From positions 992,001-1,056,000 of the forward strand of contig NC_011901.1 of NCBI RefSeq assembly GCF_000021985.1: DNA of 64,000 bases. The letters are read 5' to 3'. Below, in pieces: positions 16,810-48,799 of the stretch (position 1 is its first letter; every line of letters starts with the position of its first letter). The notes under the pieces are model-generated. The model was not told the origin of the DNA. It ran no database searches and worked only from the letters and a program-made list of their open reading frames with translations. The DNA comes from Thioalkalivibrio sulfidiphilus HL-EbGr7. GTDB lineage: Bacteria > Pseudomonadota > Gammaproteobacteria > Ectothiorhodospirales > Ectothiorhodospiraceae. The translations under genes were made by a program, and so were the position numbers.

Positions 16810-18120
16810 ATGCAAGTCTCAGTGGAAACCGTCAGCAACCTGCAGCGCCGAATGACCGTCCAGGTCCCCTCCGAGCGCATCGAGCAGGAGGTGGATCGTC
16901 GTCTCAAATCCCTCGCCAGGCGCGTCAAGATCGACGGCTTTCGCCCCGGCAAGGTACCCCTGAAGGTGGTGCAGCAGCGCTACGGCGCTGGCGTGTTCCA
17001 GGAAGTGGTGGGCGAGGTGCTGCAGAGCTCCTATCAGGAGGCGCTGCTGCAGGAGAAGCTCGAGCCCGCCGGCAGCCCCAGCATCGAGCCCAAGCCCCTG
17101 GAGCCGGGCAAGGGCCTGGAATATACCGCCACCTTCGATGTATTCCCCAAGGTGGAGATCGCTGATCTGAGCGACGTGGCCGTGGAGCGGCCCAGGGTGG
17201 AGGTCAGCGACGCCGATGTGGACAAGGTGATCGAGACCCTGCGCCGTCAGCGCAAGGAATTCGTCGCCGTGGATCGGGCCGCCCAGAAGGGCGACCAGGT
17301 GATCGTCGACTTTGACGGCAGCCTCGACGGCGAGGCCTTCGAGGGCGGCAAGGGCGAGGCCATGCCGGTGGAGCTGGGCGAGGGTCGCATGCTGGCCGCC
17401 TTCGAGGACCAGCTCAACGGCATGAAGCCCGGCGACGAGAAGACCATCGACGTGCCCTTCCCGGAGGATTACCCGGCGGAGAACCTCAAGGGCAAGACCG
17501 CCCAGTTCGCCATCAAGGTGCGCGAGGTGAAGGAGCCCACCCTGCCGGAAGTGGACGAGGCCTTCGCCAAGTCCTTCGGCATCGAGGAGGGCGGCGTCGA
17601 GAAGCTGCGCGAGGACGTGCGCGCCAACATGGAGCGCGAGGTGGCCCAGGCGCTGAAGGCCAAGGTCAAGGACCAGGTCATGCAGGCCCTGTTCAAGGCC
17701 CATCCCCTGGAGCTGCCCGAGGCCTTGGTGAAGGACGAGATCGAGCGTCTGCGCCAGCAGGCCCTGTCCCGCTTCGGCGGCCAGGTCAAGCCGGAGAACT
17801 TCCCCGACGAGGTGTTTCGCGAGGAGGCCGTGCGCCGCGTGTCCCTGGGCCTGATCATCCGTGAACTGGTCGCGAGCAAGGGCATGAAGGTGGACGCCGG
17901 CCGGGTCAAGGCGGAGCTGGAGGCCATGGCCGCCGGCTACGAGGACCCCAGGCAGGTGATAGACTATTATCGTAACAACCGTCAGGCCCAGAGCGGCCTG
18001 GAGGCCATGGTGCTGGAAGACCAGGTGGTGGACTTCGTGGTGGAGCAGGGCAAGGCCACCGACAAGCCCATGAGCTTCGACGAACTCATGAATCCCCGTA
18101 AGGAGGGTGCATCCGAATGA
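16810..18120 (+). CDS. tig: Trigger factor
   Basis: 436 residues. Ribosome-bound chaperone with prolyl isomerase activity that meets nascent chains at the exit tunnel. The N-terminal ribosome-docking signature is clear ([14 protein letters not shown]). The central FKBP-like domain covers about 150-245 ([20 protein letters not shown]), and the long helical C-terminal arms follow. GAGAGGAACC lies before the ATG. The stop overlaps the clpP start, the conserved tig-clpP-clpX-lon arrangement. Confidence 0.97.
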
Positions 18121-18767
18121 GCAATCAGGGCATTGGCGACCGCGGCGCACTGGACACCCGGGCGTTGAACCTGGTCCCCATGGTGGTCGAGCAGACCGCC
18201 CGGGGCGAGCGGGCCTATGACATCTACTCCCGGCTGCTCAAGGAGCGGGTGATCTTCGCCGTGGGTCCCGTGGAGGACTACATGGCCAACGTGATCGTGG
18301 CCCAGTTGTTATTCCTGGAGTCCGAGAACCCGGACAAGGACATCAGCCTGTACATCAACTCTCCCGGCGGCGCCGTGACCGCCGGCATGGCCATCTACGA
18401 CACCATGCAGTTCATCAAGCCGGACGTCTCCACCCTGTGCATCGGCCAGGCGGCCAGCATGGGCGCGGTGCTGCTGGCCGGTGGTGCCAAGGGCAAGCGT
18501 TTCTGCCTGCCCCATTCCCGGGTGATGATCCATCAGCCCCTGGGCGGTTTCCAGGGCCAGGCCACCGACATCGACATCCATGCCCGCGAGATCCTGAAGG
18601 TGCGTGCCGAACTGAACCGCATCCTGGCCCATCACACCGGCCAGAGCATCGAGCAGATCGAGCAGGACACGGAACGTGATCGGTTCCTCAATCCTGTCGA
18701 GGCTGCGGAGTACGGTCTGATCGACCAGGTGCTCTCCAGCCGTGAGATGGCGGAGCAGGCCGGCTGA
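18117..18767 (+). CDS. clpP: ATP-dependent Clp protease proteolytic subunit
   Basis: 216 residues. Catalytic triad visible as S114 (QAASMGA), H139 (MIHQP) and D188 (TERDRF); the N-terminal propeptide of about 17 residues precedes the mature start. Forms the 14-mer protease chamber served by ClpX, encoded next. ATG overlaps the tig TGA, so translation is coupled. Confidence 0.97.
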
Positions 18768-38387: not shown

Positions 38388-40058
38388 TCATGCCCCGCCG
38401 CCCTGGTTGGTGACGTCCACGTGCAGGGTCAGGGTCTGTCCGGGGCGGATCAGATTGCCGTTGCCCAGGTTGTTCCAGCGGCGGATGTCAGCCACGCTGA
38501 CCTGGAAGCGCTGGCCGATGCTTGCCAGGGAGTCCCCGGGGCGCACGGCATAGTTCACCGTCTGGCGCCGCGCGGCCGGGTTCTGCAACTGCGGCGGACC
38601 CGCCGAGGCCACCGGACCGGCGTCGCTGCTCAGCCACACGGACAGGCGCTGGCCCGGGCGCAGGGTGTCGCCGGGGGCCATGCCGTTCCAGCGGGCCAGT
38701 TCCTGCACCGAGACGTTGTAGCGCCGGGACAGGCCCCAGAAGGTGTCGCCCGCCTGGACCAGGTGCTGGTGCTGTACCCGGCCGGCCGGCCCGCGCGCCT
38801 GGGTCTGGGTGCGGCGCTGGTCGGCCGTCAGGGTGTAGGTGGAGGCCGGTTCGCTGGCGCTCGGCACCAGCAGGTACTGGCCTGCGCGGATGTTGCTGCC
38901 GCGGAGGTTGTTGGTGCTCTGCAGCATGGCCACGGTGGTGCGGTACTGGCGGGCGATCTGGATCAGGGTCTCGCCCTCCTGGATGCGGTGGCGGTTCCAG
39001 ACCACCCGCTCGGAGGCATCCAGCGCGGCCAGACCCTCGCGGAAGGCCGGTGTGCGGTCGCGGGGCAGCAGCAGGTGGTGGGGGCCTTCAGGATCGGTGG
39101 CCCAGCGGTTGAAGCCCGGGTTGAGCTGGTAGACCTCTTCCAGGTCCAGGTCCGCCAGGCGCGCCGCCACGGCGAGGTCCAGCTGGCCGTCCAGCTGCAC
39201 CAGTTCCAGGTAGGGCTCGTCGGGCACCGGCCAGAGTTCCACGTGGTAGGCCCAGGGGTCTTCCACCAGGCTGCGCAGGGCCAGCAGCTTGGGCACGTAC
39301 TGGCGGGTCTCCCGGGGCAGGTCCAGGCTCCAGAAGTCCGTGGGGCGGCCCAGGCGTTCGTTCCGCTGGATGGCCCGGGCCACGGTGCCCTGGCCGGCGT
39401 TGTAGGCGGCGAGCGCCAGCAGCCAGTCGCCGTCGAAGCGCTGGTTGAGCTGCTGCAGATAGTCCAGGGCGGCGGTGGTGGAGGCGTGAATATCGCGGCG
39501 CCCGTCATACCACCAGTTCTGCTTCAGGCCGAAGTGGCGCCCGGTGGAGGGGATGAACTGCCAGATGCCCGCCGCGCGGCCGTGGGAATAGGCGAAGGGC
39601 AGGTAGGCGCTTTCCACGATGGGCAGGAGCAACAGCTCCGTGGGCAGGTCCCGGGCCTCGATCTCTTCCAGGATGTAGTGCAGCAGGGGTTCCGCCCGGG
39701 CGGTCACCCGCTGGATGAAGTCGGGGCGGCACAGGTGCCACTGGATGTGGGGCTGGACGCTGGGGTGGTGGCGGTAATCGGGCATACCCATGCCGGCGCG
39801 CACCCGGCCCCAGATGTCCTCGCTGGGCGGGCTCTCGCCCACGGGGATGTCCCGGGAGGGGGTCAGGTCGGGGAAGGGGGTTGCTTCCTCCAGGCCGAGC
39901 AGGGTCTGCTCGGCGTCCGCCAGTCGTACGGTGTCGGTTTCTTCAGTGATTTCAACCCGTTCCGGTTCATCGGGTTGAGAGGGGAGGCTGCCGCAGGCGC
40001 TCAGCAAGAGGGCCGCGGGCAGCAGCGCGGCGATGACCATGAAACGGATGGGGTTCAT
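38388..40058 (-). CDS. mltD: LysM lytic transglycosylase, MltD type lipoprotein
   Basis: 556 residues from ATG 40058 (a longer frame exists). Lipoprotein signal with lipobox LLSAC, so it should sit in the outer membrane. An SLT domain (about 110-240) has the catalytic Glu in LLPIVESAYLPFAYS and the AAGIWQFIPSTGRHFGL block. Three LysM repeats follow (about 345, 420 and 500 onward: IQEGETLIQIARQY, VQAGDTFWGLSRRYN, VRPGDSLASIGQRF) for peptidoglycan binding. Cleaves glycan strands to 1,6-anhydro ends. Confidence 0.93.
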   Translation of the reverse strand: MNPIRFMVIAALLPAALLLSACGSLPSQPDEPERVEITEETDTVRLADAEQTLLGLEEATPFPDLTPSRDIPVGESPPSEDIWGRVRAGMGMPDYRHHPSVQPHIQWHLCRPDFIQRVTARAEPLLHYILEEIEARDLPTELLLLPIVESAYLPFAYSHGRAAGIWQFIPSTGRHFGLKQNWWYDGRRDIHASTTAALDYLQQLNQRFDGDWLLALAAYNAGQGTVARAIQRNERLGRPTDFWSLDLPRETRQYVPKLLALRSLVEDPWAYHVELWPVPDEPYLELVQLDGQLDLAVAARLADLDLEEVYQLNPGFNRWATDPEGPHHLLLPRDRTPAFREGLAALDASERVVWNRHRIQEGETLIQIARQYRTTVAMLQSTNNLRGSNIRAGQYLLVPSASEPASTYTLTADQRRTQTQARGPAGRVQHQHLVQAGDTFWGLSRRYNVSVQELARWNGMAPGDTLRPGQRLSVWLSSDAGPVASAGPPQLQNPAARRQTVNYAVRPGDSLASIGQRFQVSVADIRRWNNLGNGNLIRPGQTLTLHVDVTNQGGGA

Positions 40059-40197
40059 GGGTGCCAAGGATAGCGACCGGGGGGTACCCTCCACAACCCT
40101 GAACAGTGGCATCCATCGGGTCGTCTAGACGTCTGTCGGACGTCGCTGTGTACGGACCGTCATGGACTTGCCCGGCCCATGGGATATGCTGTCGGCC

Positions 40198-40944
40198 ATG
40201 AACCCCTCCGACGCCATCCGCGACCGACAGGACCTGCGTGCCTGGTACGCCACGCCGCCCGGCGAGGCGCTCAGGGCGGAACTGCGCCGCTATGCGGCCA
40301 GCGTGGTGCCCCAGCTGTTCGGCTACCATGCCCTGCAGGTGGGTGATCTGGGTGAATCCCTGGATATGCTGGAGGGCTCGCGCATCATCCACCAGGTAAG
40401 CCTGAGCCTTACCCCCCCGGCCCAGGTGCTGGCCCAGCCCCGGGCCCTGCCCGTGCAGTCCGACACCCTGGACGTGGTGGTCCTGGCCCATGTGCTGGAA
40501 TTCTGCTCGGATCCCCACCAGGTGCTGCGCGAGGTGGACCGCACCCTGGTGCCCGAGGGGCATCTGCTCATCGTCGGTTTCAATCCCTTCAGCCTCATGG
40601 GCCTGCGTCGCCTGTTCGCCGGGCGCGGGGGGATGGCCCCCTGGCGCGGGCGCTACTACAGCGTGTTTCGCATCAAGGACTGGCTGCGCCTGCTGGGTTT
40701 CGACCTGGTGGCCTGCGTGCCCGCCGGCTTCCGTCCGCCGCTGCGGGGCGCCGGGCTGTTGCGCCGCCTGCAGTTCATGGAGACACTGGGCGCCCGTTTC
40801 TGGCCGTACTTCGGAGGTGCCTACGTGATCCTTGCCCGCAAGCGTGTCGCCACGCTCACCCCCATGCGCCCCCGCTGGCGCCCGCGCCGCCGGCTCGCCG
40901 CCGGGCTGGCCAGTTCCGGGTTGCGGAGACAGGGTCGTGGCTGA
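40198..40944 (+). CDS. SAM-dependent methyltransferase (YafS-like)
   Basis: 248 residues from ATG 40198 (frame opens at 40162). Methyltransf_11 fold: [33 protein letters not shown] followed by [12 protein letters not shown]. The glycine-rich motif I is weak, as in YafS. In E. coli yafS lies beside rnhA and dnaQ, as here. Substrate unknown. An Arg-rich tail ends the protein, and rnhA starts within its last codons. Confidence 0.85.
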
Positions 40945-41389
40945 GTCCCAGCGGGTGGAGATCTACACCGACGGTGCCTGTCGCGGCAATCCCGGTCCCG
41001 GCGGCTGGGGCGCCGTGCTGCGTTTCAAGGGCAGGGAGCGCACCCTCAAGGGCGCCGAGGCCGAGACCACCAACAACCGCATGGAACTGACTGCCGCCAT
41101 CATGGCCCTGGAGACCCTGACCCGTCCCTGCGCCGTGGATCTGACCACCGACTCCCAGTACGTGAAGCAGGGCCTGACCCAGTGGATCCACGGCTGGAAG
41201 CGCAAGGGCTGGCGCACGGCCGACGGCAAGCCGGTGAAGAACCAGGACCTGTGGATGCGCCTGGACGCCGCCGCCGCCCGCCACGAGGTGGCCTGGCACT
41301 GGGTGCGCGGCCACACCGGCCACCCGGAAAACGAACTGGCCGACCAGCTGGCCAACGAGGCCATCGACGAGATGCTGGCAGGGGCCTGA
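40937..41389 (+). CDS. rnhA: Ribonuclease HI
   Basis: 150 residues from GTG 40937, which overlaps the upstream stop; the open frame extends further but only as a shadow. Cleaves RNA in RNA-DNA hybrids. The D-E-D-D site is visible: [29 protein letters not shown] and [10 protein letters not shown]; the basic handle is [20 protein letters not shown]. Precedes dnaQ, separated by composite repeat C7. Confidence 0.96.
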
Positions 41390-41394
41390 AGGCA

Positions 41395-41588
41395 AACGCG
41401 GCGCAAAGATGTGAAGAAAACCGTGATTGCTGATCAAATTCTGATTTCCCCGTGGCTCCGTGCCCCCGTGAGAGAACATGTGTTTGCCTGGCTTTAAGGA
41501 AACAGGCTTCTCTCACGGGGTCACTGGGACACGGGGAACCCAATTAGGTGTTTTCATGTTTCACGATTTTGCGTCTTCGCGTCGAAAT
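41395..41588. repeat. Composite nested inverted repeat (C7)
   Basis: Outer arms 41395-41422 (ACGCGGCGCAAAG, GTGAAGAAAACC) and about 41549-41588 (GTGTTTTCATG, TTTTGCGTCTTCGCGTCG). Inner arms about 41448-41475 (CCCGTGGCTCCGTGCCCCCG, TGAGAGAA) and 41508-41538. Same inner and outer modules as C6. Lies between rnhA and dnaQ. Confidence 0.85.
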
Positions 41589-41627
41589 CTTTTAATGTCT
41601 GTCCGTCACGCCTGAACCGAGAACCCC

Positions 41628-42353
41628 ATGAACAATCGCGTCGAGATGTCCGACAACAACCACCGCCAGGTGGTGCTGGATACGGAAACCACCGGTCTTG
41701 AGCCGGCCCAGGGTCATCGCATCATCGAGATCGGTTGCGTGGAGCTGGTGGGGCGACGCATCACCCGGCGCACTTTCCACCACTACCTGCAGCCGGACCG
41801 GGAGATCGACGAGGGCGCGCTGGCGGTACACGGCATCAGCAACGAGTTCCTGGCCGACAAGCCGCGCTTCGCCGACGTGGTGGACGAGTTCCTGGAGTTC
41901 ATCCGCGGCGCCGAGCTGGTGATCCACAATGCCCCCTTCGACGTGGGCTTCCTGGACCACGAGCTCAAGCTGCTGGACGCCGCCCGTGGCCAGGTGACCG
42001 ACTACTCGAGCATCCTGGACACCCTGGACCTGGCCCGGCGCATGCACCCGGGCCAGCGCAACAGCCTGGACGCCCTGTGCAAGCGCTACCAGATCGACAA
42101 CTCGGGGCGCGAGCTGCACGGCGCCCTGCTCGACGCCCGCATCCTGGCGGATGTCTATCTCGCCATGACCGGCGGCCAGACCACCCTCTCCCTGGGCGGC
42201 GAGGCTGCGGGCGTCAATGGCGAGGCACGCGCCGAGAGCATCCGGCGTCTGCCCGAAGCCCGCGCGCGCCTGCGGGTCATCCGCCCCTCGGAGGCGGAAT
42301 TGCAGGCCCACACCCGTCTGTTGGAAAAGCTCAATCCGCCGTCCCCCTGGTAG
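41628..42353 (+). CDS. dnaQ: DNA polymerase III epsilon subunit (proofreading exonuclease)
   Basis: 241 residues. DEDDh 3'-5' exonuclease: VVLDTETTGLE (D18, E20), VIHNAPFDVGFLDHEL and HGALLDARILADVYL with the catalytic His and Asp. The C-terminal part (LPEARARLRVIRPSEAELQAH) matches the alpha-subunit tether region. Start may be M1 or M7 (41646); neither has a strong ribosome site, because repeat C7 occupies the leader. Confidence 0.95.
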   Translation: MNNRVEMSDNNHRQVVLDTETTGLEPAQGHRIIEIGCVELVGRRITRRTFHHYLQPDREIDEGALAVHGISNEFLADKPRFADVVDEFLEFIRGAELVIHNAPFDVGFLDHELKLLDAARGQVTDYSSILDTLDLARRMHPGQRNSLDALCKRYQIDNSGRELHGALLDARILADVYLAMTGGQTTLSLGGEAAGVNGEARAESIRRLPEARARLRVIRPSEAELQAHTRLLEKLNPPSPW

Positions 42354-42444
42354 TCCCCGATCCCTGCGCCGCAGCGGGGCAGGGCAGTGAACAACAACCG
42401 ACAACAAGACACTGACAAGCAAGCAACCCGAAGGAGACTTTTAC

Positions 42445-42690
42445 ATGAGCAACTGCAAGCCCGAGATCGCCGCCAAGCAGCCCATCGCCGTGCAGCTGGA
42501 GGCGGGCAAGAAATACTTCTGGTGCGCGTGCGGCAAGTCCAAGAAGCAGCCCTTCTGCGACGGCTCCCACCAGGGCAGCGGTTGCGAGCCGGTGGCCTTC
42601 ACCGCCGAGAAGACCGGCGAGGCCTGGCTGTGTCAGTGCAAGCGCACGGGGAATGTGCCGTTCTGCGATGGTAGCCATAACAAGCTGTGA
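42445..42690 (+). CDS. CDGSH iron-sulfur protein with two CDGSH motifs
   Basis: 81 residues. Two copies of the C-x-C-x2-S/T-x3-P-F-C-D-G-S-H motif (WCACGKSKKQPFCDGSHQG and LCQCKRTGNVPFCDGSH), each binding a 2Fe-2S cluster through three Cys and one His. Related to mitoNEET. Good ribosome-binding site (GAAGGAGA). The role in bacteria is not settled; redox or iron handling is likely. Confidence 0.93.
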   Translation: MSNCKPEIAAKQPIAVQLEAGKKYFWCACGKSKKQPFCDGSHQGSGCEPVAFTAEKTGEAWLCQCKRTGNVPFCDGSHNKL

Positions 42691-42699
42691 GGGGGTGCT

Positions 42700-42921
42700 G
42701 AACAAGTCCAGGACGGACTTGCCAGTGCGTGCAGTACCCGGTACACGCCCTGACGCTGCTGCTCGAGTCAAATTTGTAGGTGTTCGATTCGCGGGCGGTT
42801 CGTCACTGACTGCGGAAACGCCGAGTTATTAAGCGTTTCCTAAGTATATTCAGGCCGTTGATGGTGAGGCTAGTTTTTAGGTGTGCTCATTTACATTTTC
42901 GATGCCGGGGTGGTTATTGTC
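42700..42921. other. Transition from core DNA to AT-rich islet
   Basis: No gene. An AAGTCC/GGACTT hairpin (42704-42720) and GTACCCGGTAC lie near the start, possibly the remnant of a mobile-element end. Base composition then falls sharply from about 42780 onward. Confidence 0.4.
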
Positions 42922-44241
42922 ATGTTTAGGTGGTCTATATTTGGATTTATTTTTGCATTAACTGCCGCTACAGTTAATGTACTAAGCGCTGAAGAAAAGA
43001 TAAATGGAGGTGCATATTTTTCATATTTTCCTAGTCATGATGTTGTGGTCATTGACGGTGAGATAGTTGAAGGTGATTACCAAAGATTTCTGGCCGCTTT
43101 GCTGTCATCAGGTTATGGGGCAAGTATTTTTATTTCATCGCCTGGAGGTGATCTGCATGAGGCAATGCGCATTGGCAGATTAATACGTAAAATAGGGTAT
43201 GTTACTGATATCCCTACTGCGCGACCGGATGCGAGTTGTACCCCTCTCTACAATATTCAGCACTGTACCTGCGATAGTGCATGTTTATTTATTTGGTTAG
43301 GAGGTATTAAGCGAGAGGGAGATTATATTACCGTTCACAGGCCATACATAGAGCCATCATCGCTCAGAGAAATCACCGCAGACGAGGCACGTGAGCATTC
43401 ATTGCTGATAGCAGAGTGGGTGGCTGACTATTTTCAAGAAATGGGCGCTCCTCGTGCGCTGTGGGATCGAATGTCGTCAGTATCCTATGACCGTGTCGAA
43501 AGGTTGAGTCAGTCCTATATTGAGAGGAATCTCTCTGGGGTTTCTAGAGATTATGAGGATTGGTCAATAGCGCGTTGTGGAAGGCTTGATGCTGGATCCT
43601 CGCGCGATACTTATATAAGTACATGGGCTTGTTTGAATGAGTTGTTTTATAGGCATCGAGAGTCGAGGTTTAATGAGGCTCTGGTTGGTGCTTTAGAAGA
43701 GCTTAGAATTGCCGGGCAGATAACCGATGAGCTTGCTGCGTATTTGCCGTTCATTGGTTCGGAGACAATCGTTAACAATTTGGTTGGTAAGTCCTATAAG
43801 CACGCCTCAAAGGTGTTGGGTTTACATGGCTTCGGGGATCCTGTGGCTTGGGTTGAGGATGTCGCTGGGAAGTGTGTGACTATTTCTTACTTGGGCGTGG
43901 TTTGCTTCGATGCCGATGGGATCGTAACACAAATTAGCATGCCTTATTACAGTGCTGATGGGGCAACGTTGTTTACTCCGACTAGGGCTTACAAAGGTAA
44001 GTCCTTGCATCCTTTCTACTATGGAGTTGCTAAGGGTGAAGTTGATAATTTTATAACTGCTTCGGAGGTTGCAAGTTACAGCGTGGTGGATACAGTATAT
44101 ACGTCTTTATATGTAGGTGAGAATGAGGATTATGTGGTGACTTATAATGCTGTAGACGACACTTTAAGGAATCTTCAAATAAATTATAAAGGATATGTCG
44201 CTGAGCTCTTGGGGCTTAGCGGTTCAGTCAATGAGCGGTGA
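42922..44241 (+). CDS. Secreted ClpP-like serine-protease-fold protein (COG3904-like)
   Basis: 439 residues from ATG 42922, where a signal peptide begins (hydrophobic core to about 22, cut near SA-EEK); GTG 42883 is a longer alternative. Residues 40-142 follow the ClpP fold: FISSPGGDLHEAMRIGRL matches the oxyanion strand, CDSACLFIWLGG holds the likely nucleophile S119, and ITVHRPY the His H139. Cysteines at 106, 115, 117 and 121 surround the active site and could form disulfides in the periplasm. The C-terminal 250 residues are unrecognised. Codon usage is AT-rich, unlike its neighbours: horizontal transfer is likely. Confidence 0.65.
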   Translation: MFRWSIFGFIFALTAATVNVLSAEEKINGGAYFSYFPSHDVVVIDGEIVEGDYQRFLAALLSSGYGASIFISSPGGDLHEAMRIGRLIRKIGYVTDIPTARPDASCTPLYNIQHCTCDSACLFIWLGGIKREGDYITVHRPYIEPSSLREITADEAREHSLLIAEWVADYFQEMGAPRALWDRMSSVSYDRVERLSQSYIERNLSGVSRDYEDWSIARCGRLDAGSSRDTYISTWACLNELFYRHRESRFNEALVGALEELRIAGQITDELAAYLPFIGSETIVNNLVGKSYKHASKVLGLHGFGDPVAWVEDVAGKCVTISYLGVVCFDADGIVTQISMPYYSADGATLFTPTRAYKGKSLHPFYYGVAKGEVDNFITASEVASYSVVDTVYTSLYVGENEDYVVTYNAVDDTLRNLQINYKGYVAELLGLSGSVNER

Positions 44242-44262
44242 AGTTTGCGCTTTGGCTTGATT

Positions 44263-44703
44263 ATGTACGAGATTGCTAGGATTGTTGCTGGTTTTGCTAC
44301 CGCTATTGGTGTTGCAATTGCTGCATGGCAAATATGGCGTACTGCTGAGCAATCAAAAACTACATTTGAGGATGCGCTTTCAAAAGAGTACAGAGAGTTG
44401 ATAAGGGCTGTTCCATATAAGGCTCTGATTGGGCAAGAATTGACTGACGACGAAATCTTAGGTTGTAAGGACGCAATCTTTAACTACCTCGATTTCTGCA
44501 ATCAACAAATTTATCTAAGATCGAAAAAAAGAATCCGCTGCGATACTTGGATGGAATGGCAGGATGGGATGAAGGTTAATATGACACTTCCTTTGTTCTC
44601 CGAGGTGGCGGCTGAAGTTTTTTCTCAACTTCCTGATGTTTTTGAGGGCTTGCGCAGGGTAATGCAAGAAGGTTTCAAGTCTGATCCAGCGCAGTGGTAT
44701 TAG
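44263..44703 (+). CDS. Small membrane-anchored protein of the AT-rich islet
   Basis: 146 residues from ATG 44263 (a TTG at 44245 is also open). One N-terminal membrane helix (IVAGFATAIGVAIAAWQIW) then a mostly helical cytoplasmic part with DDEILGCKDAIFNYLDFCNQQIYL. I do not recognise a named family with confidence. Only 21 nt after the ClpP-like gene, same low GC, so probably one transferred operon. Confidence 0.6.
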   Translation: MYEIARIVAGFATAIGVAIAAWQIWRTAEQSKTTFEDALSKEYRELIRAVPYKALIGQELTDDEILGCKDAIFNYLDFCNQQIYLRSKKRIRCDTWMEWQDGMKVNMTLPLFSEVAAEVFSQLPDVFEGLRRVMQEGFKSDPAQWY

Positions 44704-44733
44704 ACGTATCTTTATAGCGAGCCTTTTATCGCC

Positions 44734-46041
44734 TCACGCCACCCTGGGAATCGAGGACACCAGGTCCACCACGTGGGTGGCACCGCTGCGGATCTCATCC
44801 ACCAGGGTGCCTGCGGAGATGACCTGCTGACGACCCCTTTCCGCGGCCTCGCTGACGTTCTCGATGCGTGTGACGATCTCCGTGGTGTACTGGAGATTGC
44901 CCTGGAGTACGCGGGTGATTTCCTCCGTGGCGGTGCTGGTGCGGGCGGCCAGCTGGCGGACCTCGTCGGCCACCACGGCGAATCCGCGCCCATGCTCGCC
45001 GGCGCGGGCCGCCTCGATGGCGGCGTTGAGCGCCAGCAGGTTGGTCTGGGAGGCGACGCTGCTGATGGTGGCGACGATGGTCTCGATGTTCTTGGACTGG
45101 CTGTTGAGGTCGTGGATGGCGCGCTTGGCCTCATCGATGAGCGCGCGGATCTGTTCCGAGTTTTCCACAGAGGCGAGCAGGGACGTGTAGCCCCGTCCGG
45201 CGTTGTCGGCGGTCTGCTGTGCCGTGGAGTAGGCCACGGCGGATGCGTCGCGGATCTTGTTGGCGGCGTCGACGCTTTCGGTGATGTCGGTGGCGAATTT
45301 GATCACCTTCACGGTCCTGCCCTGTTCGTCCAGGATCGGGTTGTAGCTGGCCTCGAGCCAGAGCTCGCGGCCATCGGAACGCAGCCGGCGGAACTTGCCG
45401 GTCATCAATTCCCCGGCAGCAAGCTGTTCCCAGAAATGGGGGTGATCGCGGTAGAAGGCCTCGTCGCAGAACATGCGGTGATGTCGTCCGCGGACCTCGT
45501 CCAGCCGATAACCCACGGCATCCAGGAAGTTGCGATTGGCATCCAGGATCTGGCCTTCGGGGGTGAAGGAGATGACGGCCATGGACCGGTCCAGGGCCTG
45601 GAACACGGCCGCCTGATCGCGCAGCTGTTCCTGCTTGGCAGTCACGTCGGAGGCGATCTTGATCACCCGGGTGACCCTGCCCGAGGCGTCCCTGACGGGG
45701 AAATAGGTGGCTTCCAGCCAGAGGCGCCGGCCGTCCGCCCTGCGGCGGGGGAAGGTGCCTGCATGGGATTCGCCCCGGGCGAGCCGCTCCCAGAATTGCC
45801 TGTATTCGGTGGACTTGACGTAGGACGGGTCACAGAACAGGCGATGATGGGCGCCAAGCACGACCTCCCGGGTGTGGCCCGTGGCGGCCAGGAACTGCTC
45901 GTTCACATCCAGGATTTGTCCATCTGGCGTGAATTCAATGTAGGCCACCGAGGCCCGGATGGCATCGAATGCGAAGCGGGTCTCGGCCAGGGCCTGTCGA
46001 CATTCGGCCAGTTCGTTGTGCAAGCGCTTGTTCAGAATCAT
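44734..46041 (-). CDS. Soluble chemoreceptor-like protein with two PAS domains
   Basis: 435 residues from ATG 46041 with GGAGG 6 nt upstream; the longer frame to 46272 is unlikely. Two PAS domains with PAC motifs (about 20-135 and 140-260; [42 protein letters not shown]), then an MCP signalling hairpin (about 320-400) with [21 protein letters not shown] and [13 protein letters not shown]. No membrane segment, so an internal signal (redox, light or a ligand) is likely. Should couple to CheW/CheA, which are not in the window. Confidence 0.92.
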
Positions 46042-46609
46042 GAGGCCTCCCCGGAGTATTCGCGTGGCCACGGTGGCCACGGATATCTTATGCACAACAT
46101 ATACATTAATTGTACATGATTCCCGGGAATGCACCAGTGGGGTGCAAATAGCCGCCTGCCCTGATATCAGGCTGCGGTGTAATTCGACGAATAAACATAT
46201 AGATAGTGGTTTGTGGGTGCGCCTTCCGGGTGGCTGGTGGTGATTTCGGGGTGTACAGGTGGGGCAGATCATGCCACTAAGCGCCCAAGGGAAATCCGGG
46301 TCGCGGATGTGCGGAGAAAATGCCCCAGTCTGCGCAGAACCGGGTCAACCGGCTGGCTAAATTCTGATCAGGGTCTATGCTCCATTGTCATAAATGCGGC
46401 TTCAGGCAAGTTCCAGGCCTGAAAGCGGCACAATCAAGGGCTGATTCATACACACTGGGGGATCCATGGTGAACAGGCCATCCTGTCCGATGGTGCTCAC
46501 CGCTCGTTCCTGTCTTCTCGCAGGTCGTCCGGCCATGTCTGGCTGCGCGATCTGCGTGCCGTGCTTTCGCCCATCATCCTGTCGGCACTAGCCCCGGGAG
46601 CCTTTGATC
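46042..46609. other. 568-bp spacer without a supported gene
   Basis: Lies between the divergent chemoreceptor and acetyltransferase genes. The first 150 bp are AT-richer than the surroundings and contain a near-palindrome TGTACAATTAATGTAT (minus strand, near 46103-46118), a possible operator. TTCAGGC/GCCTGAA forms a small hairpin near 46402-46424. No repeat of families A-D is present. Confidence 0.4.
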
Positions 46610-47134
46610 ATGCAATGGCAGGGAAGCGAGGTGCAGGGGGGTGGCTGGACCATTCGCGAGTTCGAGGAGGAGGACCTGGACGCCGTTCTGCGGGTGTTCC
46701 AGGACGCGGTGCGCAAGGTGGCGGCCCGGGACTATATCCCCGAGCAGGTGGAGGCCTGGGCCCCCGATCCCCCGGATCAGCCTTCCTGGTGTCGGCGACT
46801 GGCCCGCTGCGCGGTGTTCGTCTACGTGGTGCAGGGGCAGGTGGTCGGGTTCATCGCCATGGAGGCCAACGGGCATGTGGACATGCTGTTCGTGGACCCC
46901 GGCCACCTGCGGCGTGGCATCGGCACCGCCCTGCTGGACCATGCCAGGGCCTGGGCCCTGGAGCGGGGCGTGCGCCGCCTGACCACCGATGCCAGCATCA
47001 CCGCACGACCCTTCTTCGAGCATGCCGGCTTCCGGCTGGTGGAGCATCGCATCGTGCCCCTGCGGGGCATGATGTTCCGCAACTTCCACATGTCGCTGGA
47101 TTGCCGGCCGGGGCCGGGTTCTGATACGGGTTGA
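46610..47134 (+). CDS. GNAT-family N-acetyltransferase
   Basis: 174 residues from ATG 46610 (TTG 46604 is also open). The acetyl-CoA-binding segment VDPGHLRRGIGTALLDHARA carries the R/Q-x-x-G-x-G/A signature, and TARPFFEHAGFRLVEHRIVPLRG is the typical GNAT C-terminal part. Closest in pattern to YafP/ElaA-type stand-alone acetyltransferases. Substrate unknown. Confidence 0.9.
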   Translation: MQWQGSEVQGGGWTIREFEEEDLDAVLRVFQDAVRKVAARDYIPEQVEAWAPDPPDQPSWCRRLARCAVFVYVVQGQVVGFIAMEANGHVDMLFVDPGHLRRGIGTALLDHARAWALERGVRRLTTDASITARPFFEHAGFRLVEHRIVPLRGMMFRNFHMSLDCRPGPGSDTG

Positions 47135-47145
47135 TTGAAAAAATC

Positions 47146-47335
<190 letters not shown>

Positions 47336-47363
47336 GGGTTTTCAGACATCAAGCGCAGATACA

Positions 47364-47397
47364 AAAAAGCCCGCACCTCTCTCGGTGCGGGCTTTTT
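47364..47397. terminator. Bidirectional terminator next to the PEP-CTERM gene
   Basis: A5 then GCCCGCACC (to 47377) pairs with GGTGCGGGC then T5 (from 47384), loop TCTCTC. It lies between repeat C5 and the PEP-CTERM stop. Confidence 0.92.
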
Positions 47398-47418
47398 CAT
47401 GCGCTGCGTTTCAGGCGA

Positions 47419-48126
47419 TCAGGCCGAGTGGCGGCGGCGCATGCCCATGGCCAGGGCCAGCAGGCCGATGCCCAGCAGGGCCAGGGCGCCCGGCTCGGGG
47501 ACGCCGATGGGCTTGGGCGTGATCACCAGCAGGTTCTGGGACCTGTCGGAGGTCAGCACGTACATGTGGAACTGCTCGACGGTCTCACCCAGATCATTCA
47601 GCCAGCCGTTGGCGATGCCCTGAGCGCTACCGAAGGCGTTGCTGCGGAAGCTGCCGTTGGAGAGGCTGGTGTTGCTGGTGGTCTCGTTGATGATCTCCCA
47701 CAGGCCCAGCTGGAAGGCCACGTTGGTGGCGGTGCTGCCCAGGCTAGTGTGGTTGTTGCCGTACAGGCTCTGAATCGCGCCCAGCTGGCTCGCAGAGAAG
47801 TAGTCGCCGGCATTGACCACGTTGTAGGTGACCGTGCTGCTGGTGTTCAGGGCAATCCCGGTCTCGATGCAGAAGGCCTCGACCCGGCCGCCCCACTCCA
47901 CATCACCACTGCTGCCCAGGACATTGAATCCGAACAGGCCGGCGTTCACGTTCAGACTGCCGCTGCCACCGATGAGGTTGCCGTTGGTGTCGTACAGGGT
48001 GCCGGTCGTGGAGCCGCCGACGAAGCCGGTGTACCGAAGGTCAACGGTGTTGGCGCTGGCACTGCCGAAGGCCAAAAGACCCAGCACCAGCAGCAGAACG
48101 GCAGATATCCTGTTAACGATTTTCAT
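47419..48126 (-). CDS. PEP-CTERM sorting-domain protein
   Basis: 235 residues from ATG 48126 (ribosome site CCAGGGAT). N-terminal signal peptide (cut near ASA-NT), a Ser/Thr/Asn/Gly-rich beta-type body, and a C-terminal PEP-CTERM tail: GVPEPG motif, hydrophobic helix, then RRRHSA. Such tails are recognised by exosortase/archaeosortase-type enzymes in exopolysaccharide-producing bacteria. The exosortase gene is not in this window. Likely an envelope or matrix protein; exact role unknown. Confidence 0.9.
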   Translation of the reverse strand: MKIVNRISAVLLLVLGLLAFGSASANTVDLRYTGFVGGSTTGTLYDTNGNLIGGSGSLNVNAGLFGFNVLGSSGDVEWGGRVEAFCIETGIALNTSSTVTYNVVNAGDYFSASQLGAIQSLYGNNHTSLGSTATNVAFQLGLWEIINETTSNTSLSNGSFRSNAFGSAQGIANGWLNDLGETVEQFHMYVLTSDRSQNLLVITPKPIGVPEPGALALLGIGLLALAMGMRRRHSA

Positions 48127-48325
48127 ATCCCTGGACCTCATTGTCGGTTTTTCTTGCACAACCGCCGTTGCAGTGTGCTCTAAGTCACAATGAAGCAGGA
48201 AGTGTGCCAGGGTTCTGGTAGCCTTATTTTGCTTGGCTTTTTGTGAGCCATGCCACGCGGACCGGGGAAGATTTGTAAGTTATTTCGACAGGATGGCGGT
48301 ATGAAAGAGGCCAGGGGCGGGGCTT

Positions 48326-48799
48326 TCAACCCTTCTTCAGCGCCCGTTCCTTCTCCCGCTGCCAGTCCCGGTCCTTGATGGTGGCGCGCTTGTCATGTTC
48401 CTTCTTGCCCTTGGCGAGGCCGATCTCCAGCTTAGCCCGGCCGCGCTTCCAGTAGAGCGCGAGCGGGGTCAGGGTGTAGCCCTTGCGCTCCACCTGGCCG
48501 ATGAGCTTGTTGAGTTCTTCCTTGTGCAGCAGCAGCTTGCGGCTGCGCATGGGGTCGGGGTGGATGTGGGTGGAGGCGGTGGGCAGGGGGCTGATGTGGG
48601 CGCCGAACAGCCAGGCCTCGCCGTCCTTGATGAGCACGTAGCTCTCGTTGAGCTGCACGCGCCCGTCTCGCAGGCTCTTGACCTCCCAGCCCTCCAGGGC
48701 GAGGCCCGCCTCGAAGCGTTCCTCGATGAAGTATTCGTGGCGCGCCTTCTTGTTGAGCGCAATGGTGCTGGTGCCCGCTTGTTTGGCCTGTTTCGACAT
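48326..48799 (-). CDS. smpB: SsrA-binding protein SmpB
   Basis: 157 residues. Partner of tmRNA in rescue of stalled ribosomes. The OB-fold start [20 protein letters not shown], the [19 protein letters not shown] block and the basic C-terminal tail ([19 protein letters not shown]) are all present. The tmRNA gene ssrA is not seen in the window. Divergent from the symporter gene. Confidence 0.96.

Follow-up and report, generated by a model that had tools for sequence, protein, structure and literature searches.

A two-gene islet in Thioalkalivibrio sulfidiphilus HL-EbGr7 is best explained, with moderate confidence, as acquired cargo in which gene 1 would encode an exported ClpP-fold serine hydrolase that works without an ATPase, and gene 2 a separate membrane protein. 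This explanation is preferred because of the ClpP fold matches of gene 1, the alignment of its Ser and His with those of ClpP, the conservation of its active-site motif, the variable slot in which the islet lies, and the lack of co-occurrence with gene 2. The window analysed is the whole stretch of 64,000 nucleotides at positions 992,001 to 1,056,000 of contig NC_011901.1, and coordinates are those of the window unless a locus is named. The features discussed below are as follows.

42695..44730, no strand: the islet (BLASTN alignment break points against the closest relative G004, alternative insert sequence, composition)
42922..44241, + strand: gene 1, 439 aa from the ATG (protein P0001), an exported-looking ClpP-fold protein (translation, model, fold searches, profile alignment)
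42922..42990, + strand: hydrophobic N-terminus of gene 1, residues 1-23, a probable signal peptide (read from the translation)
43027..43542, + strand: predicted ClpP-fold core of gene 1, residues 36-207 (VIA-align range; pLDDT mostly >85)
43276..43278, + strand: S119 codon, on the catalytic Ser of ClpP and flanked by C117 and C121 (profile alignment, relative loci)
43336..43338, + strand: H139 codon, on the catalytic His of ClpP (profile alignment, relative loci)
43582..44238, + strand: C-terminal part of gene 1, 219 residues, no recognised family (Pfam, plasmid and phage searches)
44263..44703, + strand: gene 2, 146 aa (protein P0002), predicted all-helical with one hydrophobic stretch (translation, model, profile searches)

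The islet and its variable slot

The GC content of the islet is 44.6%, against a window mean of 65.2% (sd 4.0 over 2-kb stretches), and the lowest-GC 2-kb stretch of the window lies within it. GC3 is 39% and 40% in the two islet genes versus 90% and 91% in two left-hand neighbours, a dnaQ-like and a CDGSH-like gene, in agreement with the initial annotation, which had described an AT-rich islet unlike its neighbours. The islet that it placed at 42780-44703 is real, but extends further, the alignment with G004 breaking at 42695 and ~44730. Genes 1 and 2 lie on one strand with 21 bases between them, and 27 bases separate the gene-2 stop from the right break point.

The site between the two convergent genes is a slot with variable cargo. 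The dnaQ-CDGSH stretch to the left is found in all five searched genomes of the genus (the window's genome counted). In G004, alignment of the left flank (96.3% identical) ends at 42694 and that of the right flank (94.7% identical) starts again at 44731; the slot between them holds 1153 bases of other DNA versus 2036 in the window. In the G004 insert (GC 59.7%), one gene (L027 2954-3850) encodes an intramembrane-protease domain of the Rce1-like (CPBP) type (E 3e-22) and is split by one in-frame stop codon. In three other genomes of the genus the alignment covers the left-hand genes and goes no further; different genes come next. Each of the two break points against G004 is no more than four bases from the stop codon of one of the two convergent genes, so the cargo differs while both neighbours are left intact. 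The composition and the alignment break against the relative support the islet being foreign, horizontally acquired DNA.

A tRNA- or repeat-bounded island was considered and rejected: the nearest tRNA is 19 kb off, no Rfam match occurs in 40000-48500, the repeats at the islet are all short and chance-like, and promoter-like sites (3, versus 3.5 in shuffles) and terminator-like sites (2, versus 1.8) are about as frequent as in shuffled sequence. The islet DNA was not found in plasmid records. Elsewhere in the window, a gene at 47419-48159 (- strand) encodes a protein that ends, as read by eye, in a PEP-CTERM-like sorting signal.

Fold and active site of the gene-1 protein

The structure model and profile alignment support a ClpP-type fold for the gene-1 protein, with S119 and H139 at the predicted catalytic Ser and His positions, as the initial annotation had proposed. 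The model, for which P0001 was aligned with 25 relatives (alignment A6), is of high confidence over most of residues 31-200. In Foldseek, ClpP chains head its match list, the best at E 6.6e-5, and 150 chains reach E ≤ 0.001; VIA-align superposes it on ClpP with Z 15.0 and an rmsd of 2.6 over 148 residues (36-207). A PDB search with the family profile also returns ClpP (best chain E 7.8e-7), while P0001 alone matches no PDB sequence up to E 10, and plain BLASTP of its core against the host's own ClpP (encoded at 18117-18767) gives just E 0.22.

ClpP carries a catalytic serine and a catalytic histidine. When the family profile is aligned with the host ClpP profile (probability 94.2, E 1.1e-7), S119 falls on the former and H139 on the latter. 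The conservation of these residues was counted, without a motif filter, in 29 relative loci, the best-scoring matches of a profile search of Pseudomonadota. The S119 column is Ser in 25 of the 29 and Gly in four (C-Q-G-S-C), and C117, C121, H139 and the SxGG turn are each present in all 29. The family members with Gly at the nucleophile column are L049, L050, L054 and L058. The third member of the triad is unsettled, since in the profile alignment D190 misses the ClpP Asp by two positions, and its column is Asp in only 13/29 relatives (Glu in 5/29).

Alignment A6 consists of P0001, four rows from a contig pattern scan and 21 loci that passed a C.S.C filter (eight of the 29 being dropped), so the conservation of C-x-S-x-C within it is partly due to selection. 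The structure model, the profile alignment with host ClpP and the family searches of Pfam, PDB, NCBIfam and PADLOC all used this alignment. Four cysteines do cluster near S119 in P0001 (C106, C115, C117 and C121), as noted initially, but conservation is confined to C117 and C121; C106 and C115 sit in an insertion that, at those columns, is missing from 28 of the 29 relative loci.

Outside the core, the hydrophobic N-terminus coincides with a modelled helix at residues 2-27, and the model has pLDDT <50 at residues 342-439. The description of the C-terminus as unrecognised is borne out: the C-terminal 219 residues have no Pfam match up to E 10 and nothing in plasmid or phage records (limit E 1), and the last 214 residues are matched in none of the 21 relatives compared. 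The search of this part against the PDB gave one match, at E 0.87. Two identities were considered for it and rejected. A BamE-like domain was suggested by eye, but BLASTP against the window's BamE-like protein gives E 0.8 and Pfam gives no match. A second ClpP copy was suggested by a 29-residue BLASTP match (E 0.003, a single comparison), which was taken as chance; the core itself gave E 0.22 in the same comparison.

Distribution of the gene-1 family

P0001 has no sequence match in 95 relatives or in 320 other genomes of the class. Plasmids yield 161 matching records, all at <60% identity and none over 80% of the protein; phage records yield one relative, in Agrobacterium phage Atu_ph07 (two records), and viral contigs no match for either the gene-1 or the gene-2 protein. 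With a 10-row gene-1 profile, 158 of the 378 Pseudomonadota genomes searched have a match at E ≤ 0.001, a count that overstates the family, as its weakest matches are probably ordinary ClpP. A pattern scan of genome contigs returned 129 matches, three of which encode gene-1 relatives. Proteins of this exported-looking, ClpP-like kind with C-x-S-x-C are widespread in Pseudomonadota. In a beta-proteobacterial metagenome contig (L014 5890-7915), a resolvase-like gene comes after a tandem pair of ClpP-like gene-1 relatives.

Searched alone, P0001 has no match in Pfam (limit E 10) or NCBIfam (limit E 1). Among the 26 family members, the Pfam Clp protease family (PF00574) is matched by 9 at E ≤ 0.01, and the NCBIfam ClpP-related head-maturation protease by 16 at E ≤ 0.001; weak matches are found to NfeD1b_N (2/26), SppA_dom (2/26) and the PADLOC model CARF_TM (1/26, E 0.00075). 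The C-terminal parts vary between relatives, with, for example, an LprI match in 2/26. A PF00574 search of the window's genome to E 1 returns the host ClpP only.

The gene-2 protein and its relatives

The gene-2 protein is probably a single-helix membrane protein. Its model, made from an alignment of three sequences (mean pLDDT 83.8), is all helical, with the first helix at residues 2-48. The fold search recommended in the initial annotation for both proteins, which returned ClpP for gene 1, gave no significant match for gene 2 (best Foldseek E 1.0). In Pfam, P0002 has no match up to E 1; the best signal from its family is Aca2_YdiL (2 of 10 members, best E 0.00043), and its matches among PDB sequences are weak, led by a ribonucleotide reductase beta subunit (E 0.012).

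By sequence, gene 2 is absent from the 95 relatives and from phage records, while two other genomes among 321 of the class and three others among 378 of the phylum contain relatives. One is G450, in whose genus 2 of 118 genomes (G450 counted) have a relative. Relatives also occur in four plasmid records, including the haloarchaeal Natrinema plasmid pJ7-1 and a record of Streptomyces canus (H23). On pJ7-1 (L006 4890-5369), the relative shows 44.4% identity (tblastn, 80% of the query covered) and sits on the opposite strand, with annotated BREX-5 genes on both sides.

Both gene-2 copies of G450 are flanked by repeats; their two arrays count 20 left ends over 15.0 kb and 21 over 14.0 kb, each of them on the same strand. 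In G772 (L073 2911-4208) the neighbour of the gene-2 copy is a half-length, divergently oriented ORF. It matches TIGR02249, an integron-integrase model, over the model's first half, with E 1.6e-59 and 201.9 bits, short of the curated cut-off (265). The gene-2 copy is followed by a repeat of the G450 kind and is probably the first cassette of its array. We take the repeats in G450 and G772 to be attC sites, from their arrangement and from their likeness to such arrays. The gene-2 relatives in G300 and G188 have no such repeats. Gene 2 thus belongs to a mobile, partly cassette-borne family, whose sampled loci lack gene 1.

The window islet was considered as an integron cassette, and this was rejected: the search for attC-like pairs in 42301-45000 came up empty, and repeats like those of G450 were not found anywhere in the window. 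The generic attC test is a weak one: of the G450 loci L065 and L066, which both contain real arrays, it picked out a single site in the former (shuffle mean 1.0) and nothing in the latter.

Relationship between the two genes

The initial annotation had suggested a conserved module of the two genes, and had named in advance their failure to co-occur elsewhere as evidence against it. In the samples searched they do not co-occur. At E ≤ 0.1, the gene-2 profile finds no gene 2 near members of the gene-1 family (0/37 loci), and two gene-1 profiles find no gene 1 near members of the gene-2 family (0/9 distinct loci). The flanks covered were ~1.5 kb for the 29 genome loci, L062 and L063, and several kb for most others. 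The gene-2 test took in the three plasmid records other than that of Streptomyces canus, and the G772 locus L073 was judged separately, from its ORF list alone. Both families are present in only 2 of 378 Pseudomonadota genomes, namely the window's genome and G450, and in G450 they lie on different contigs.

Recurrence of the pair in other genomes, which the initial annotation had asked to check, was not found at these loci, and no PADLOC model matches the gene-1 or the gene-2 protein (limit E 1). The links to defence come by way of gene 2 and are indirect: one of its relatives lies in a BREX-5 locus and three are in cassette arrays. The spacing of the two genes (21 bases, one strand) would also fit an operon. 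Most simply, gene 2 is a neighbour and unrelated accessory cargo rather than a conserved partner of gene 1. The islet as a whole resembles exchangeable accessory cargo more than an established two-part system.

Proposed function and alternative explanations

In the preferred explanation, the islet would have been acquired horizontally as accessory cargo in a variable slot between convergent genes. The gene-1 protein would be exported to the periplasm, where it may cut short peptides or protein tails in the envelope in an ATPase-free manner, with S119 as the putative nucleophile and H139 as the putative base. A probable C117-C121 disulfide would brace the active-site turn, and the extra C-terminal part may target or gate the enzyme. 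Gene 2 would encode a separate protein of a mobile, partly cassette-borne family, presumably placed in the membrane by its single helix.

Several findings count against this explanation, namely the Gly at S119 in 4/29 relatives, the unsettled third triad residue, the lack of a Pfam or PDB match for P0001, the BLASTP E of 0.22 between its core and ClpP, and the 21-base spacing of the genes, which an operon would also explain. The first two would be expected if gene 1 were an inactive ClpP-fold scaffold, which keeps the disulfide-bound turn and binds peptides or envelope proteins without cutting them; we regard this as unlikely though credible, as S119 is kept in 25/29 relatives and H139 in 29/29, both on catalytic positions. 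We give still less weight to the idea that the islet is what is left of a larger element, now decaying and without a function. The short, chance-like repeats and the absence of a tRNA within 19 kb are compatible with decay, as is the alternative gene in the G004 slot, broken by an in-frame stop, but in the islet both reading frames are open and the core residues are kept.

The two genes could also be read as a module for envelope stress or defence, with the membrane protein as sensor or signaller and the exported ClpP-like protein as the acting part. This reading draws on their single strand, 21-base spacing and shared foreign composition, and on the gene-2 relatives in the BREX-5 locus and cassette arrays. 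Set against the lack of co-occurrence at the 37 and 9 loci and of a PADLOC match for either protein, it is very improbable. A variant of this idea, which we consider equally improbable, would make the two genes a novel device for envelope defence or stress: a single-pass membrane protein of a mobile, partly cassette-borne family would here have newly joined an exported, disulfide-braced ClpP-fold protease, and the C-terminal part of gene 1 would recognise the trigger or target.

Whether the ClpP-like proteins with C-x-S-x-C are active periplasmic peptidases that need no ATPase can be tested in a straightforward way. Gene 2 is a reasonable candidate for testing as a stand-alone phage-defence gene, since its family has no Pfam model and is found in cassette arrays, in plasmids and in a haloarchaeal BREX-5 locus.

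Comparison with known systems

Three of the gene-2 relatives (two in G450, one in G772) resemble integron gene cassettes in that they lie in attC-type arrays, whereas no such repeat was found at the window islet.

For gene 1, the closest likeness is to the exported ClpP-like proteins of Pseudomonadota, presumably those with the label COG3904. Like P0001, these have the ClpP fold, the SxGG turn, C-x-S-x-C and a His ~20 residues further on, as well as, in many, a hydrophobic N-terminus (by eye) and differing C-terminal parts. P0001 differs from them in its two extra cysteines (C106 and C115) and in a C-terminal part unlike those of the 21 compared. A literature search, covering listings, the starts of abstracts and few subscription journals, found no recognisable study of exported-looking ClpP-like proteins with C-x-S-x-C. 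Another secreted ClpP-like protein is the subject of PMC12419801, to judge from part of that article.

ClpP itself (PF00574, the ATP-dependent Clp protease subunit) shares the fold and the Ser and His positions with P0001, which differs in its predicted export, its C-x-S-x-C motif and the lack of a PF00574 match. ClpP proper forms heptameric rings in the cytosol, where they dock onto a Clp ATPase. The membrane-associated ClpP-fold peptidases SppA, NfeD and 1510-N combine a ClpP-like fold with an envelope setting, as is predicted for gene 1; 1510-N is among the Foldseek matches of the gene-1 model (rank 50), while P0001 itself matches neither NfeD1b_N nor SppA_dom. The ClpP core of gene 1 is of a kind already known, and what is unusual about the gene is its unmatched C-terminus and the company that it keeps in a swappable slot.
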